Of a stretch of 64,000 nucleotides of DNA, positions 55,357 to 64,000 are shown one piece after another. Position numbers and translations under genes: made by a program. Origin of the DNA: Campylobacteraceae bacterium (GTDB lineage Bacteria; Campylobacterota; Campylobacteria; Campylobacterales; Sulfurovaceae); the NCBI GenBank assembly GCA_027065385.1, contig JAMOOP010000108.1, positions 28,628 through 92,627 of the forward strand, in the 5' to 3' direction. Under the pieces are notes generated by a model. That model saw only the letters and a list, made by a program, of their open reading frames with translations, was not told the DNA's origin and searched no databases. The stretch's first letter is position 1, and each line of letters opens with the position of its first letter.

Positions 55357-57024
55357 ATGCAAAAAAAGATAATTGAAATTTCAAACAAATATAACCTAGC
55401 AACTATCAAAGAAAATATTGAAGCTTTAGATAAAAATTTAGATTTAAAAATAGGATTTTTAGGAGAGTTTAGTTCTGGAAAATCTACTTTAATTAATGCC
55501 CTACTAGATAAAAAAGTTCTTCCATCTATGGATAAACCTACAAGTAAAAGTGTTATTGAACTTATCTCTAAAGATAATTTAAAAGAGTTAGAGTTTTATG
55601 AGTTAAAAGATGAGAGAAAAGAGAAAATATCAGCTACTAGATTTTCAGAAATTGCACTAACAAGTAGCGACTCTAAAGCTATGGTTTATGTTCCATCAAA
55701 TGACTTTTTTCAAGATGGTTATATGATGATAGACACCCCTGGTATATCATCTTTAGATAATAGTGATATAGATATTACTTATGGCTATTTGCCTTTTTTG
55801 GATTGTGCTATTATCTGTAACCATATTCAAAAAGGGAGTCTTACTCAATCTATTATTAATTTTATTTTAAAAGATGAGATACGACCTATTATTAATAATC
55901 TACTATTTGTAATTACAAACTCATATACTAAAGCACCAAAATCTCAAATAAAGATAAGAAAAAAGATTATCTCTCAACTATCTGCTCTGAATGAAAAATA
56001 CTCTTTAGGTATGAATGATATAGCCTCTAAAGTTGTTAATGTTTCAGCACTTGAAGCTATGGAAGGGAAAGGTGGTTTTACTCTTGATGCTTTAAAGAAC
56101 AGTTTTAATCAAAATTTTATTAGAAAAAAGGTCACTCTTCAAGAGCAGAAAAAGGCTAAAGAGATAGATAAGATTACAAATCAACTTTTAAATACACTAC
56201 TATATAAAAAGAAAAGTAGTAGTTTAGATTTATCTACTCTAAAAGAGAAAGAGGAAACACTCAACAATGAAATATTAGCCTTAGAGCAAAAAAGAGCTAA
56301 AATTCTTAAATCACTTCAAACCATTGATAGTAAAATTGGAGATAGAATATATACTATTTTTAATAAAAATCTTCCTAAAATAAAAACACTTAAAAATGAA
56401 GATGAGGCTTCTATTTTTATGGAGCAGTTACAAGAGACTATAGGTAGGGAGGTATCTAATATTATATCTTTACACTTTAAAGAGCTTTCTAGTTCGAGTG
56501 ATAATATTATAGAGTTTAGAGAGTTAGAGAGCATTATCTATAATCTATTAGAACAGATAAATATGGGAAAAGATATTGGAATGGTTATCTTAATTGAAAT
56601 CTTAACTCTTGGAACTGCTGGAATTGGTGGCTTTTTTGGGTTCTTTTTAAGAAGTGCCTCTAATATGATAATGAAGCAAGAGGGAAATAGTCACCTAAAA
56701 AATACAGCAGAATTTATTAGTAAAGTTAACCCTTTAGAGAGAGTTGGAGGTATGATTAGTGCTAAAGTTATAGAGAGTCAAATTATGCCTAAGTTAGAGG
56801 AGTTATCAAAAGAGATTGCTATTGATATAAAAGAGGAGTTGGGTGTAAAGGTGGAGAGTGAAGTTTTTGTACCATTAGAAGAGAAACTCTATTTAAATCA
56901 AAAGATGCTCAATCAACTATATAAAGAAAAATCTGATAAACTAGAAGAGTTTACAATTTTTAATAAAGAGATAGATAATGACATTTTAGAGTTACAATCT
57001 ATCAAAAGAGTATACGATGTCTAG
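55357..57024 (+). CDS. Dynamin-like GTPase 1 (with hydrophobic membrane segment)
   Basis: G1 GEFSSGKSTLINALL, G2 PTSKS, G3 DTPGISS; GMVILIEILTLGTAGIGGFFGFFL; long coiled coils. Confidence 0.85.
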   Translation: MQKKIIEISNKYNLATIKENIEALDKNLDLKIGFLGEFSSGKSTLINALLDKKVLPSMDKPTSKSVIELISKDNLKELEFYELKDERKEKISATRFSEIALTSSDSKAMVYVPSNDFFQDGYMMIDTPGISSLDNSDIDITYGYLPFLDCAIICNHIQKGSLTQSIINFILKDEIRPIINNLLFVITNSYTKAPKSQIKIRKKIISQLSALNEKYSLGMNDIASKVVNVSALEAMEGKGGFTLDALKNSFNQNFIRKKVTLQEQKKAKEIDKITNQLLNTLLYKKKSSSLDLSTLKEKEETLNNEILALEQKRAKILKSLQTIDSKIGDRIYTIFNKNLPKIKTLKNEDEASIFMEQLQETIGREVSNIISLHFKELSSSSDNIIEFRELESIIYNLLEQINMGKDIGMVILIEILTLGTAGIGGFFGFFLRSASNMIMKQEGNSHLKNTAEFISKVNPLERVGGMISAKVIESQIMPKLEELSKEIAIDIKEELGVKVESEVFVPLEEKLYLNQKMLNQLYKEKSDKLEEFTIFNKEIDNDILELQSIKRVYDV

Positions 57025-58252
57025 TTTTTTTAAAGAGATAGGTGATAAAGTTAAACAGATTTTTACGAAACAGGAGAGACTCTATTTTTCAAATAGTACA
57101 GATATTAATAACTTCTCTGAAACTATGATTAGAGACTTAACCTCTTTTAAAGCTATTAAAGAGTTTTTATCAGAAAATAGTGTATCTTATAGAGAGGTAG
57201 AAAATTTAGAGTATAATGCATTTAATCTACTTATTAATCAAATTGAATTAGAAAAAGGCAATAGTAAAGTAGAGGTTGGAGTAATTGGTAGTTTTAGTAG
57301 TGGAAAATCAACCTTTATTAACTCTCTTTTTGGAAAACCTATCTGTCCTATGGCTGTTAGACCTACTACATCATCTATTACTAAATTCTACTATGGTTAT
57401 AATGAGAAGATAACTATGAATAGTATAGAGATTACCAAAGAAGAGTACTCTAATTACGCTCAACATAAGACAAAAGATACCGAAAATTCAGAGACACACT
57501 ATATAGAGTATGCTTATCCATTTGATAAACTAAATTCGATTATACTATATGATACACCTGGGTTTAATAATAATCTAAATTTTAATGATACTAAAGTAAC
57601 TATGAAAACACTAGAGTCTGTTGATGTTATATTCTTTATTGTAGATATATCTAAAGGTTCAATAGATATGAGTTCTATTGATAGACTTAAAAAACTAAAA
57701 GATAAAAGAATGTACTGTATTTTAAATAAATCAGACCTAAAATCATCACAAGCAATAGAGAAAATAAAAGATGAAATAGTATCTAAAAAAATATTTTTAG
57801 AGGTTGTTGAGTATTCAGCATCAAAGGTTTTAGAGTTTGGAGAGGTAAACTATTTAAGAGACTATTTTCAAGATATTGAAAAAGAGTTAATTTCTCAAGA
57901 AATAGATTTTAGTAGTACAATAAGAGGCGTTTTAAGTGAAAAGAGAAGTAGATTAAAGAGTAAACTAGAGTACAATTTATATATTGATGATAATGAGTTT
58001 ACTATTGATGAGTTCTATATTAAAGCAAAAGAGCAAAAAAGTAGAGTAGAAAAGATGTTAAATAGATTATCAGAGAGTAAACAGTTTACACTTAAACATA
58101 AATTAAAGAAAGATATATATAACTACCATAAAAAGACTCTTTCTATTTTAGAAGATTTAAAATCTACACAAGATAGCATAAATATAAAAAAACTAAAAGA
58201 AGAGTTAGAGAACTTTATAAAAGAGAAAAAAGAAGATGTTACAAGAGTATAA
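57017..58252 (+). CDS. Dynamin-like GTPase 2
   Basis: G1 GSFSSGKSTFINSLFG, RPTTSSITK, DTPGFNN, NKSD; overlaps gene 1 by 8 nt. Confidence 0.85.
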   Translation: MSSFFKEIGDKVKQIFTKQERLYFSNSTDINNFSETMIRDLTSFKAIKEFLSENSVSYREVENLEYNAFNLLINQIELEKGNSKVEVGVIGSFSSGKSTFINSLFGKPICPMAVRPTTSSITKFYYGYNEKITMNSIEITKEEYSNYAQHKTKDTENSETHYIEYAYPFDKLNSIILYDTPGFNNNLNFNDTKVTMKTLESVDVIFFIVDISKGSIDMSSIDRLKKLKDKRMYCILNKSDLKSSQAIEKIKDEIVSKKIFLEVVEYSASKVLEFGEVNYLRDYFQDIEKELISQEIDFSSTIRGVLSEKRSRLKSKLEYNLYIDDNEFTIDEFYIKAKEQKSRVEKMLNRLSESKQFTLKHKLKKDIYNYHKKTLSILEDLKSTQDSINIKKLKEELENFIKEKKEDVTRV

Positions 58253-60185
58253 AAATGAGAAAGATAGAATAGTAAATAGATACAATAGACTTTTAGATTT
58301 ATCCAATATTTTCCCAAGAGATATTAGAGTAGAAGATATAATAAATAAAAAAAAACAACTAGAAGATGAACACTTTTTTGTAAGCTTTACAGGACAGATA
58401 AAAGCAGGAAAATCAACACTTATAAACGCTTTACTATTTGGTGATGAGGTCATTCCAGCCGATGATACACCTCATACTGCTAAAATTACTATTATTAAAT
58501 ATGGAGATAAGCCAAAAATAGAGGCTACTTTTTACAATAAAAAAGAGTGGAAATCTCTTCAAGCAAACAGTAATTTCTATAATGAGTATCTAAAAGCTGA
58601 TGTAGAAAAGGCTATTAAAGATGGTATATTTATTGATGAGATTATATTTGCTAATGCTAAAGTTCAAAAAGATAATAGTTTAGATAATTTAAAAGAGTAT
58701 GTAGCAAGAGATGGGAAATATACACCTTTTATTAATTTTGTTACACTCTACTATCCAAATAGTATTTTAAAAGATATAACTATTGTTGACACACCTGGTA
58801 CAAATGACCCAAATAAGCTAAGAGATAGAGTAGCTAAAGAGTGGATACATAAAACCAATGCCAATATATATATAACCTATGCCAATCAAGCAATGGATAA
58901 GGTAGATACAGAGTTTATAGATAAATTTTTACTATCTGTTCCAAAAGAGCAAAAATTAACTGTAATTAATAAAATAGATAGTGTAAATGATACAGACGGA
59001 TTAGAAGAGTATATTGAAGAGCTTTTAGCCAATGAGTCTCTTAGACGAAGAGAGATAATAAGTAGTAGAGATGGTTTAGTTTTGGTTAGTGGGCTTGGTG
59101 CATTAATTGATAAGATGCTTATAAAAGAGATACCTCTAAATGAAGATTTAAGTTACTATGCAGAACAGCTTGAAGATAAAGGATTTTTAGAGCCTGAAAA
59201 CCATAAACTATCAACGCTAGAGAAGATGATAGAGAAAAAACTTATAGAAAATAAGGGAAAAAATATTTTAGATACTCACTCTAAATTTATAGACTCTATT
59301 TTTGAAAAAAAGGTTCAGGAGTTAAAGCAAGAGTTAAAAACTAAAAGAAGTAGCTTATCAGACCTATTTAAAAGTAAATCTCAATTAGAAAAAACTAAAA
59401 ATAGTATTATTAAAATAATAGATTTTCTATCATTAGAAGAGAAAAAGATAGATAAAAACCTTAATAATTTAGTTCATAAAAGCATGGACGATTTTTATGC
59501 TATAGAGATTAATCAAAATAAAATAAGTATATCTAATATAAAAAAAGAGATAGAAAAAATTAGAAATATCTCAAACTATAAAAATGAGATACTTTGGATA
59601 GTAAAACAGAGTTTAGATAGTAATTTTGATAATTTAAGAGAAAATCTTAAAGTTATAACCGATAATTTAACAAACCATATAGAAGAGGATATAAATAGAC
59701 TTCAAGAGGATTTAACTAAAATGGATAGAGATATATCTATAAACCTCACATATCAAGCATTTACTATCTATTCACTTAAACTAACTTCAGGAGTTAGAGA
59801 GTTAGCAGAAACACAATTTAAAAAGAAAAACATTAATAAAATTATAAAAGAGAATACCAATATACTGCAACAGATATTTAATACTAAAGGTGCAATGGAA
59901 AAAATAAACTCAAAAATTATGAGTGAAATTCAAGCATTTTTTGAACAGAGTTCTAAAAATATGCAGACTCAATTTGAAAAGATACTAAATCAATATATTA
60001 GTGAAAATATCCTAAAAGAGATAACAGGTGAATTTACTAAAATTATGGAGAGAAAAAAGAGAGAGATAGAGAGCTTTATTAAAAATGAGAAAAATAAAGA
60101 GAGCTTAATAAAAACTGCAAAAGTGGATATTCTACTACTTGAAAAAGAGTTAAAATCTATAGAAAATATTAAACAGAGCTTTTAA
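58236..60185 (+). CDS. Dynamin-like GTPase 3
   Basis: G1 GQIKAGKSTLINALLFG, DTPGTNDP, NKIDS; overlaps gene 2 by 17 nt; long coiled-coil C-terminus. Confidence 0.85.
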   Translation: MLQEYKNEKDRIVNRYNRLLDLSNIFPRDIRVEDIINKKKQLEDEHFFVSFTGQIKAGKSTLINALLFGDEVIPADDTPHTAKITIIKYGDKPKIEATFYNKKEWKSLQANSNFYNEYLKADVEKAIKDGIFIDEIIFANAKVQKDNSLDNLKEYVARDGKYTPFINFVTLYYPNSILKDITIVDTPGTNDPNKLRDRVAKEWIHKTNANIYITYANQAMDKVDTEFIDKFLLSVPKEQKLTVINKIDSVNDTDGLEEYIEELLANESLRRREIISSRDGLVLVSGLGALIDKMLIKEIPLNEDLSYYAEQLEDKGFLEPENHKLSTLEKMIEKKLIENKGKNILDTHSKFIDSIFEKKVQELKQELKTKRSSLSDLFKSKSQLEKTKNSIIKIIDFLSLEEKKIDKNLNNLVHKSMDDFYAIEINQNKISISNIKKEIEKIRNISNYKNEILWIVKQSLDSNFDNLRENLKVITDNLTNHIEEDINRLQEDLTKMDRDISINLTYQAFTIYSLKLTSGVRELAETQFKKKNINKIIKENTNILQQIFNTKGAMEKINSKIMSEIQAFFEQSSKNMQTQFEKILNQYISENILKEITGEFTKIMERKKREIESFIKNEKNKESLIKTAKVDILLLEKELKSIENIKQSF

Positions 60186-61175: not shown

Positions 61176-63212
61176 ATTTCAAATCCCATAGGGACAAAGT
61201 TCAAATTACAAATCCAAACAAGCAATATATTGATTTTAGTAGTTTCAAATCCCATAGGGACAAAGTTCAAATTTAATTATAGGGAATTTATCAGATGATG
61301 CACAATTATGTTTCAAATCCCATAGGGACAAAGTTCAAATACCCATAATGAACCTCCTGCATCAATCACATTGATGTTTCAAATCCCATAGGGACAAAGT
61401 TCAAATGGACTCCTTGAGGAAGAGAAAGAGGAAGAGGAGAACAGTTTCAAATCCCATAGGGACAAAGTTCAAATTTACTAAATTAGATGATTTATTTTTA
61501 GCTAAAGATTGTTTCAAATCCCATAGGGACAAAGTTCAAATTATATCGATGACCCTAAAGACGATTATAATACTAGTTTCAAATCCCATAGGGACAAAGT
61601 TCAAATATATGAAGCAAGAAGTCGGAGGGAAAATTATTAAGTTTCAAATCCCATAGGGACAAAGTTCAAATTTTTATACAGGATGATGACCTTACAAAGC
61701 TAGAGTTTCAAATCCCATAGGGACAAAGTTCAAATGAACTTGAAAATGACGCTGATGACATAGAAAAGGAAGTGTTTCAAATCCCATAGGGACAAAGTTC
61801 AAATTTACTATCCAATATGGGCGATTGTTGTAATTGTGAAGTTTCAAATCCCATAGGGACAAAGTTCAAATTTACTATCCAATATGGGCGATTGTTGTAA
61901 TTGTGAAGTTTCAAATCCCATAGGGACAAAGTTCAAATAAAATAATATTACTGTTCAAGAAATATACAAGTAGGTTTCAAATCCCATAGGGACAAAGTTC
62001 AAATAATTATCTCCACATTATTATGTTGTATCTTCTTACAGTTTCAAATCCCATAGGGACAAAGTTCAAATAGACGATGAGGTTAAGAGGTTACAAGCAG
62101 AACTATCGTTTCAAATCCCATAGGGACAAAGTTCAAATAACAACCCTTAAAACTCAAAGGGGTAAAGTCATGTTTCAAATCCCATAGGGACAAAGTTCAA
62201 ATAGTAACAGGGAAAGTAAATGTATTAGATGTAATGTCGTTTCAAATCCCATAGGGACAAAGTTCAAATCGGTATAGCTCAAACTATCTAATCTTTCAAA
62301 ATCGTTTCAAATCCCATAGGGACAAAGTTCAAATAGATATGAAAAATAAAAAAAACACTAAAGGAATTTGCATGTTTCAAATCCCATAGGGACAAAGTTC
62401 AAATCTTGGCGGTAACATACTATACCTTTATAGGTATATTGTTTCAAATCCCATAGGGACAAAGTTCAAATGTTGGTCTAGGAGCTGATAGGGCTTTAGA
62501 GACGATGTTTCAAATCCCATAGGGACAAAGTTCAAATGTAAGCATAAAGATTTTGACCAGCTGATAGGATTGTTTCAAATCCCATAGGGACAAAGTTCAA
62601 ATGGTCAAACTATCAGGTATAGGTTCAGGTTTCAACAAAGTTTCAAATCCCATAGGGACAAAGTTCAAATTTACTATAGATGAGATACGCCCCACCTGCA
62701 ATAGCAGGTTTCAAATCCCATAGGGACAAAGTTCAAATCTGTATTCCCTACGGCATACTGTTTTCCTATTCCAGCGTTTCAAATCCCATAGGGACAAAGT
62801 TCAAATATCCCTTTTGCTACATCTAAGGCTGTTCTTTTTTTTGGTTTCAAATCCCATAGGGACAAAGTTCAAATGAGGTCTGAACGAGCCTCTAAGTCAT
62901 CTACTCTCAGTTTCAAATCCCATAGGGACAAAGTTCAAATTTCTCTTTTACCATCAATAGTAAGATTTGCTTTTCGGTTTCAAATCCCATAGGGACAAAG
63001 TTCAAATATTTCCAGGTTGGGAAAATCTTAAGATGAAAGAGTGGTGTTTCAAATCCCATAGGGACAAAGTTCAAATAGAGTTCGAAATTTAAAAAAGAAG
63101 GGGAAACTGCCGGTTTCAAATCCCATAGGGACAAAGTTCAAATATAAGTCTGTTTTTTCACTAAAAATAGAAACAACTCCAGTTTCAAATCCCATAGGGA
63201 CAAAGTTCAAAT
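61176..63212 (-). CRISPR. CRISPR array, 31 repeats / 30 spacers; + strand repeat GTTTCAAATCCCATAGGGACAAAGTTCAAAT (31 nt), spacers roughly 34-38 nt
   Basis: Repeat starts read by eye at 61176 (first base A instead of G), 61242, 61310, 61376, 61444, 61511 ... 63113, 63182. Reverse complement ATTTGAACTTTGTCCCTATGGGATTTGAAAC ends in the GAAAC-type 3' tag usual for I/III-type crRNA repeats, and the degenerate repeat is at the low-coordinate end, so minus-strand transcription with the leader at the right is favoured. Confidence 0.97.
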
Positions 63213-63540
63213 AGCAACCAAATTGCTATTTTTCGGACTCTTTTTCTTATTTGAACGAAATAATTATACTTTTATTTAGCTTAAATTAACAAGTGCTAAA
63301 TTTAAAAAGACCGAAAAATAGGTGTTTTAGAAAACTTAAACTAAGCTTTGAAAGACCTCTATATATATATTAATGATACCCCTCAAAAAATAGTACCAAT
63401 AATATATTATTAAAAATAGTAAATTACTATAAAAGAGATTTATAAAATCTCTTTTTATAATAAATTATATTAACAATAGACACACAAAATAAAACAAAAA
63501 ATAACATATAACATTATTAAATTTTTTCCAAATTTTATTT
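63213..63540 (-). promoter_or_regulatory. Putative CRISPR leader (AT-rich)
   Basis: Non-coding AT-rich DNA beside the non-degenerate end of the array; contains inverted repeat CTATTTTTCGG (63226-63236) / CCGAAAAATAG (63311-63321). Confidence 0.5.
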
Positions 63541-63576
63541 TTTTTTAAGCAAGTTTGTTATATGATAGTGAAATAA

Positions 63577-63744
63577 AAAGTCAGATAGAAGAAGTGAAGC
63601 CCTCAGGACCTGAAAAACCAACAAACTTCACTTCTAAAAGAGATTTTACTAACTTTTATATTAAAATCTACTTTAATCTATCTGATTTTCTCAAGAGATG
63701 TTGGTATCTGGACTCTTGAAAATTAAATTACAATTTTCAAGGAG
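63577..63744 (+). ncRNA. Structured RNA element / candidate translational switch upstream of the 63751 ORF
   Basis: P1 63577-63589/63677-63689 (13 bp), P2 63590-63599/63626-63635 (10 bp), P3 63641-63648/63662-63669 (8 bp); P4 63691-63697/63713-63719 competes with P5 63713-63724/63732-63744, which masks SD AAGGAG. Confidence 0.5.
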
Positions 63745-63750
63745 TCTATT

Positions 63751-63873
63751 ATGTCTGCAATGCCACAAAGAACACGAGTTTTAATTAAAGATTTACTTTT
63801 TCAAGAAAAATATAAATTAACCAATACCCAAATTGATATTATGTCATATATATTTAATTCTCAAACTTGGGCT
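63751..63873 (+). pseudogene. 5' fragment of an unknown gene, apparently interrupted by an IS200/IS605-like element
   Basis: AAGGAGTCTATT ATG; MSAMPQRTRVLIKDLLFQEKYKLTNTQIDIMSYIFNSQTWA then reads into the IS-like hairpin. Confidence 0.5.
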
Positions 63874-64000
63874 GTGAACCTCCCCACCCTTCTAGTAAAA
63901 CTAGATAGGGTGGGGCTTCCTTTATGGAAAGTTTTATAAGAGTCAGATATATACTCTTAAGGGTTGGAACACAAACCCTCTACCTGCTATCTCTAAAATT
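63874..64000 (-). mobile_element. Terminus of an IS200/IS605-like (TnpB-type) element, partial; right-end/omegaRNA-like hairpins on minus strand
   Basis: CCCCACCCT TCTAG TAAAA CTAGA(T) AGGGTGGGG (63882-63915) imperfect terminal hairpin, plus TAAGAGT/ACTCTTA (63937-63943/63953-63959) and GGGTT/AACCC hairpins; subterminal stacked hairpins without terminal inverted repeats. Confidence 0.5.

Follow-up and report, generated by a model that had tools for sequence, protein, structure and literature searches.

The window analysed here, 64,000 nt long, reaches the terminus of C108, a contig in a draft genome of 2.66 Mb and 175 contigs, and close to that end it holds a structured RNA set between a CRISPR array and a broken gene. 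The last repeat of the array ends at 63212, and between it and the RNA element, at 63213..63377, lies a segment that is also conserved next to the arrays of G149, G161 and G167 and which we take from the repeat orientation to be the leader end of the array. The left end of a dispersed element follows on the plus strand at 63378..63540; it starts with CCCCTCAAAAAATAGTACCAATAATATATTATT, continues into a terminator-like hairpin, and marks how far to the left independent copies remain similar. Behind the RNA, the 62-aa ORF at 63751 had been taken by an earlier, sequence-only reading as the downstream gene. It is indeed the start of a gene, but only 41 codons (63751..63873, plus strand) remain of what is a 5' remnant of a winged-helix, replication-initiator-like gene, cut near 63873 by a dispersed repeat whose end is found elsewhere in the source genome. 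This IS200/IS605-type element end (63874..64000) interrupts the ORF and coincides with the contig end; the repeat recurs in the source genome, where the query had 12 matches in total, and on contig C20 a TnpB-like ORF adjoins it. The window copy is a relic, and a second copy in the source genome, 86% identical and located on contig C172, has its gene intact (345 aa). Upstream of the CRISPR array, three large dynamin-like GTPase ORFs stand in a row (55357-60185), and within the array two adjacent spacers (61800-61950) are identical (TTACTATCCAATATGGGCGATTGTTGTAATTGTGAA).

The RNA has a minimum free energy of -51.4 kcal/mol, whereas 200 dinucleotide-shuffled sequences average -31.0 +/- 4.0 kcal/mol and none of them folds equally well (z = -5.12). 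All pairings of the sequence-only reading, P1 to P5 together with CCAAC, GTTGG and the Shine-Dalgarno (SD) sequence, lie in the sequence where that reading had placed them. On the plus strand, the P1 stem (63577-63589/63677-63689) encloses the P2 hairpin (63590..63635, arms 63590-63599/63626-63635), our proposed antisense target, and the P3 hairpin (63641..63669; AGATTTTA/TAAAATCT, 63641-63648/63662-63669). Farther downstream lie the P4 hairpin or anti-sequestor (63691-63697/63713-63719) and the P5 hairpin or sequestor (63713-63724/63732-63744), which covers the SD AAGGAG at 63739-63744. A cmscan comparison of the window and five other copies with Rfam found no family at gathering scores on the element, and near it only sub-threshold miRNA and CRISPR-repeat matches, in keeping with the earlier reading, which did not recognise the RNA as a known class. 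An Rfam match and homologues lacking covariation were the outcomes which that reading had named as refuting it, and neither was observed.

Covariance-model searches returned 30 matches, among them two poor rows, L131 (which lacks P2) and L133 (a chimera), leaving 28 usable copies. The covariation among homologues that had been proposed as a check is present: across the 30 rows 94.8% of pair cells are standard and 109 cells show double changes, compared with 30.5 in shuffled controls (0/500) and 10-20 in slid controls, counts that are biased towards the model structure by the model-fitted alignment and that come from related copies which are not independent. In 20 aligned leaders, 93% of the cells of P1, P2, P4 and the pseudoknot are paired and 64 cells are changed on both sides, while shuffling gives 21.8 such cells and sliding 3-16. 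Since double changes far exceed both kinds of control, the pairings are not due to chance, and the RNA is a structured family with 28 usable copies in Sulfurovaceae. All 13 pairs of P1 have double changes (13/13; 92.8% of cells paired), as do 9/10 pairs of P2 in the 30 rows, with 29 double changes and 0 one-sided changes for P2 in the 20 aligned copies; P4 is paired in 98.1% of cells and includes one compensatory pair. P1 and P2 covary strongly, but the P3 helix of the suggested three-way junction, present in the window sequence, is not conserved across copies. Among the searched genomes the RNA is restricted to three genera of one family, and a phylum-wide search of 397 genomes matched only its own genome and G149. 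Two local departures from the fold were seen: at L144:16523-16657 (G161:C82) a deletion flanked by short AGA repeats has removed all of the P2 hairpin, which makes this copy, with its intact ~900-aa gene downstream, a natural variant without the proposed antisense target, and in L143 and L135, both from G143, one P2-stem pair is broken.

The P2 loop carries CCAAC (63618-63622), which pairs with GTTGG (63700-63704) in the P4 loop, so that the predicted pseudoknot spans 63618..63704 of the plus strand. It is kept in 28/28 usable copies, and its prediction from a single sequence is strengthened by three copies (L050, L053 and L137) in which a C-G pair has become U-A (CCAAC/GTTGG to CTAAC/GTTAG). 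As had also been proposed, P4 and P5 exclude each other: every copy has the two hairpins vying for a single strand, and the SD is paired within P5 in 25/25 copies folded. In these 25 copies P5 is always the stronger hairpin (mean -8.7 kcal/mol, compared with -5.4 for P4 alone). P4 (-5.4) and the isolated pseudoknot duplex (-4.2) together average -9.5 kcal/mol against the -8.7 of P5, in energies that ignore loop entropy; this average exceeds P5, and therefore the pseudoknot can tip the balance, so that in these estimates the leader can act as a balanced switch between P5 and P4 plus pseudoknot. Across copies, the correlation between the strength of P5 and that of P4 plus pseudoknot is not significant (rho 0.29, p 0.16). 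The spacing from AGGA to ATG is 5-7 nt, ordinary for an SD and its start codon. The P4 loop also contains a conserved ATG that opens a short frame, and translational coupling through a leader peptide was considered. The frame of this ATG lies in phase 0, 1 and 2 with the gene in 4, 10 and 15 rows, its stop is placed between -37 and +160 relative to the start codon, and no spaced SD for it was found; because neither phase nor stop is conserved and an SD is lacking, such coupling is not supported, though it is possible in some copies.

The hypervariable part of the P2 loop (63600..63617, plus strand) has 27 distinct sequences in 28 copies and a GC content of 0.61, compared with 0.30 for the rest of the RNA. 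Where the remaining RNA is at least 90% identical (22 pairs; mean of the rest 93%), the loop core is only 62% identical. In four whole-element pairwise alignments, 18/1381, 46/1328, 145/1329 and 43/494 alignment windows were at least as divergent as the loop; since it ranks merely among the more divergent windows, we regard it as a fast stretch and not always the single fastest. The only copies with an identical hypervariable loop are L143 and L135, both in G143, and other copies that share a genome differ. Within a genome, a loop and the antisense sequence of another copy pair with a mean of -18 kcal/mol, against -46 kcal/mol for cognate pairs. One might think here of a mobile element whose RNA serves as a guide or bridge and whose variable loop directs insertion or targeting, since the element is dispersed in many copies, its loop differs in nearly every one, and several copies lie near CRISPR leaders. 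This is highly improbable in our judgment: the mean longest match of a loop to its own flanks is 7.4 nt, compared with 7.0 nt for the loops of other copies, no recombinase, nuclease or reverse transcriptase was recognised in the element, and both the SD switch and the antisense promoter described below would be left without explanation. The IS110-type bridge RNA was rejected on the same comparison (7.4 vs 7.0 nt), as complementarity of the loop to target or donor ends was not found. A retron- or DRT-type noncoding RNA, which the sequence-only reading had named as its main alternative, did not hold up either, as inspection by eye of the ORFs surrounding the copies looked at showed no reverse transcriptase.

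Both strands of the leader carry promoter-like motifs. On the plus strand (63544..63566), TTTAAG (63544-63549) and TATGAT (63561-63566) are separated by an 11-nt spacer, and a TTTAA box with at most one mismatch occurs at this spacing in 23/27 copies scored. The predicted antisense promoter (63643..63665, minus strand) has the same layout, with TTTAAT (63665-63660), an 11-nt spacer and TAAAAT (63648-63643). Its -10 hexamer, ATTTTA in the sense strand, is the most conserved block between P2 and P1, reading TAAAAT in 25/28 copies and TACAAT, TAGAAT or TGAAAT in the others; its position is fixed in 28/28 copies, and a TTTAA box with at most one mismatch stands exactly 11 nt upstream in 26/28. In the window group the hexamer lies in the P3 stem, while in the groups of UBA1140 and BB41 another hairpin carries it in its loop, outside any P3 stem. 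We read it as a putative -10 box because the RNA structure there varies while the hexamer stays conserved. The motifs on both strands resemble the Campylobacter jejuni promoter consensus, a TTTAAGTnTT -35 element with TATAAT, but the spacer is 11 nt here and is quoted as 15-19-bp there (PMC3824568). Transcription from the antisense promoter would begin at or just before the P2 3' arm, which in the window group means 7-9 nt beyond the -10 box and at the arm itself, and would yield an RNA of ~60 nt complementary to P2 (63575..63636, minus strand, with inferred ends). This predicted RNA folds into a hairpin of -15.5 to -22.4 kcal/mol in every copy, and a clean terminator was not found on it. The opposite strand of the leader is thus predicted, from its sequence, to carry a conserved promoter that points to RNA-RNA control.

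The genes behind the leader offer a further clue. Relatives of the winged-helix protein occur in 14/175 genomes of the family, often several per genome and many of them broken; the named ones belong to Sulfurovum, Sulfurovaceae or Campylobacteraceae, and almost all come from metagenome assemblies. Matches to PHROG families are weak but recurrent (E from 1e-4 to 0.02; L068 1e-4, L059 0.003, and L072 5e-4, the last O-like), and several members match the categories 'replication initiation protein' and 'O-like'. An AF2 model (pLDDT 78) shows a winged helix, a coiled coil and a C-terminal part; a fold search with it matched the winged helix only, with no convincing full-length match and none for the C-terminal half, and viral structure matches, weak in score, include replication initiators. 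Relatives of this protein were not found by tblastn among plasmids and phages, viral contigs searched by protein and by RNA motif gave no match, and weak phylum matches in G400 and G533 are short, low-scoring and overlap the coiled-coil part. A second, unrelated gene stands behind the leader in G160 (C289) and G161 (C82) and encodes a ~900-aa protein that contains a DnaG zinc ribbon (Pfam E 8e-8 and 9e-9); inspection by eye adds a Walker A motif and a helicase region of the DEAH type. Two further leader copies in G161 reach the contig end where this gene begins, fragments of the gene also occur in G149, G169, G061 and G054, and the only match of the DnaG-type protein by tblastn among plasmids and phages is a weak plasmid one over the zinc-finger region. 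We infer that both leader-linked genes are replication genes.

Two other explanations have to be set against these gene identities. The leader might be an antisense-controlled leader of a regulator, toxin or other selfish gene, with the antisense RNA limiting dosage or transposition in the manner of type I toxin-antitoxin systems or IS10/IS200. The winged helix resembles HxlR/MarR regulators and the scattered copies recall a transposable element, but the leader also precedes the DnaG-zinc-finger, helicase-like protein, the proteins are large (~330-900 aa) and unlike type I toxins, and the matches to replication-initiation PHROGs recur; we consider this explanation unlikely. The sequence-only reading had favoured a translational riboswitch, in which a ligand at the three-way junction or pseudoknot would tip P4 against P5 and so set downstream translation. 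The layout of junction, pseudoknot and mutually exclusive SD hairpins is that of such a riboswitch and is conserved, and what survives of the proposal is a structured cis-regulatory leader with a pseudoknot and an SD switch. The ligand does not fare as well: P3 is not conserved, the loop that would contribute to the pocket is hypervariable, two unrelated replication-type genes stand downstream, and the predicted antisense promoter crosses the sensor. Given these genes, the hypervariable P2 loop and the opposite-strand promoter, the leader is probably not a riboswitch, and we hold that explanation to be very unlikely.

Similarity between copies of the winged-helix type begins at CCCCTAAAAA..TACCAATAATA, ~380-410 bp upstream of the ATG, and breaks off at the stop codon or shortly after it; in G173, two copies that are 92% identical over 1344 bp occupy different intergenic sites. 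Because these limits coincide across copies at different sites, we describe the winged-helix type as a dispersed one-gene unit of ~1.35 kb. The copies sit in contigs among ordinary chromosomal genes. The left ends of L043, L044 and L009 open with a run of C that varies between 4 and 9 residues, and TAAAA or TCAAA comes next. A CRISPR array is close to 5/30 RNA matches (window 61177-63753, L051, L146, L049 and L133), at 0-451 bp from the element in four copies and ~400 bp beyond the element end in G167C64. The upstream side of the element faces the array at 263-451 bp in the window, G149 and G161C10 copies, and the downstream side faces it in the G167C64 copy. A truncated copy, L133:430-540 (G169:C190), begins within P4, immediately 3' of a partial CRISPR repeat equal to the window's repeat, which occurs in only two arrays of the source genome. 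When the spacers of five CRISPR arrays were compared with the elements, the matches listed included only short, mostly low-complexity, chance-level ones. Despite this recurrent adjacency, the neighbouring array is no part of the mechanism we propose. A bolder and rather doubtful thought is that the element represents a new class, a one-gene chromosomal mobile element that would spread by a replication protein and not a transposase, hold a private antisense/pseudoknot lock for each copy and settle preferentially beside CRISPR leaders.

Our results lead us to propose, with a probability of roughly three in four, that the RNA is a copy-control leader of a replication gene, similar to those of IncIalpha and REx-C, in which an antisense RNA acting at the P2 loop closes the SD in a copy-specific manner. 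What speaks for copy control is the covarying structure, the pseudoknot, the competition for the SD, the promoter motifs on both strands, the diversity of the loop and the replicative look of two unrelated genes. During transcription P4 would fold first and be held by the pseudoknot, and as long as it is held the SD would stay open and the replication protein would be made. The short antisense RNA from the opposite strand, bearing the complement of the P2 loop, would kiss that loop and block the pseudoknot, whereupon P5 would win, the SD would close and translation would stop. A rise in copies would raise the antisense RNA and lower initiator synthesis, and divergence of the loop between copies would give each its separate control, as in plasmid incompatibility.

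If this is true, the leader would represent a new family of structured RNAs and, as far as our search showed, the first pseudoknot/antisense copy-control module to be described from Campylobacterota. It suggests that unrelated replication genes can share such control modules beyond Enterobacteriaceae and Pseudomonas too, with the modules being portable, and it raises the question why replicon-type control circuits exist in multiple chromosomal copies, several of them beside CRISPR leaders. The ~28 natural loop variants and the natural covariation are material for testing specificity.

Several known systems share parts of this design. In the SAM-II and preQ1 translational riboswitches a pseudoknot controls access to the SD, and this link is common to our leader, whereas a conserved ligand pocket or aptamer core is missing here and a variable loop and a predicted antisense promoter take part. 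IS10 and IS200 are dispersed elements with a structured 5' leader that hides the SD and an antisense RNA that controls transposase translation; dispersal, the SD-hiding leader and a (here predicted) antisense RNA are shared, but our element has no known transposase and differs in its hypervariable loop and replication-type genes. Closer to copy control are the IncIalpha/I-complex and IncL/M systems (ColIb-P9 repZ; Inc RNA or RNAI), in which, as in this leader, a UUGG motif takes part; it lies in the target loop there and in the downstream loop and the antisense RNA here. An antisense hairpin of ~60 nt, predicted in our case, is common to both. Translation of IncIalpha repZ requires a pseudoknot and is blocked by antisense RNA (PMC8383071), and a pseudoknot upstream of the ribosome-binding site is likewise shared, its antisense block being known there (PMC10724649, PMC8383071) and proposed here. 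The compatibility of IncK plasmids is set by changes in the loop and interior loop (PMC10724649), and loop changes set incompatibility in these systems (PMC10724649, PMC8383071; Asano & Mizobuchi 1998 as cited there), while in our case the loops vary between copies of the same genome. Our leader differs in having no conserved leader peptide (repY/repB there), in its additional enclosing P1 stem, in the lack of sequence similarity (no Rfam match) and of related proteins, and in the location of its copies in chromosomal contigs of Campylobacterota. As several defining features are present and the leader peptide is not, and as the antisense RNA and plasmid replication are a proposal, we do not class the RNA as an IncI-type replicon.

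REx-C of Pseudomonas plasmids is, like our leader, a short and conserved control module whose stem-loops covary and for which an antisense RNA is putative; it is found on non-homologous rep genes, loop differences relieve incompatibility, and a rep homologue from a chromosome became able to replicate when the module was supplied (PMC5304414). Its authors argue against a pseudoknot with the rep-proximal sequence (PMC5304414), whereas the pseudoknot and a direct SD switch are central to our leader, and sequence and host differ as well. What the two have in common is one module placed on non-homologous genes, in our case a winged-helix gene and a DnaG-zinc-finger gene with a probable role in replication.
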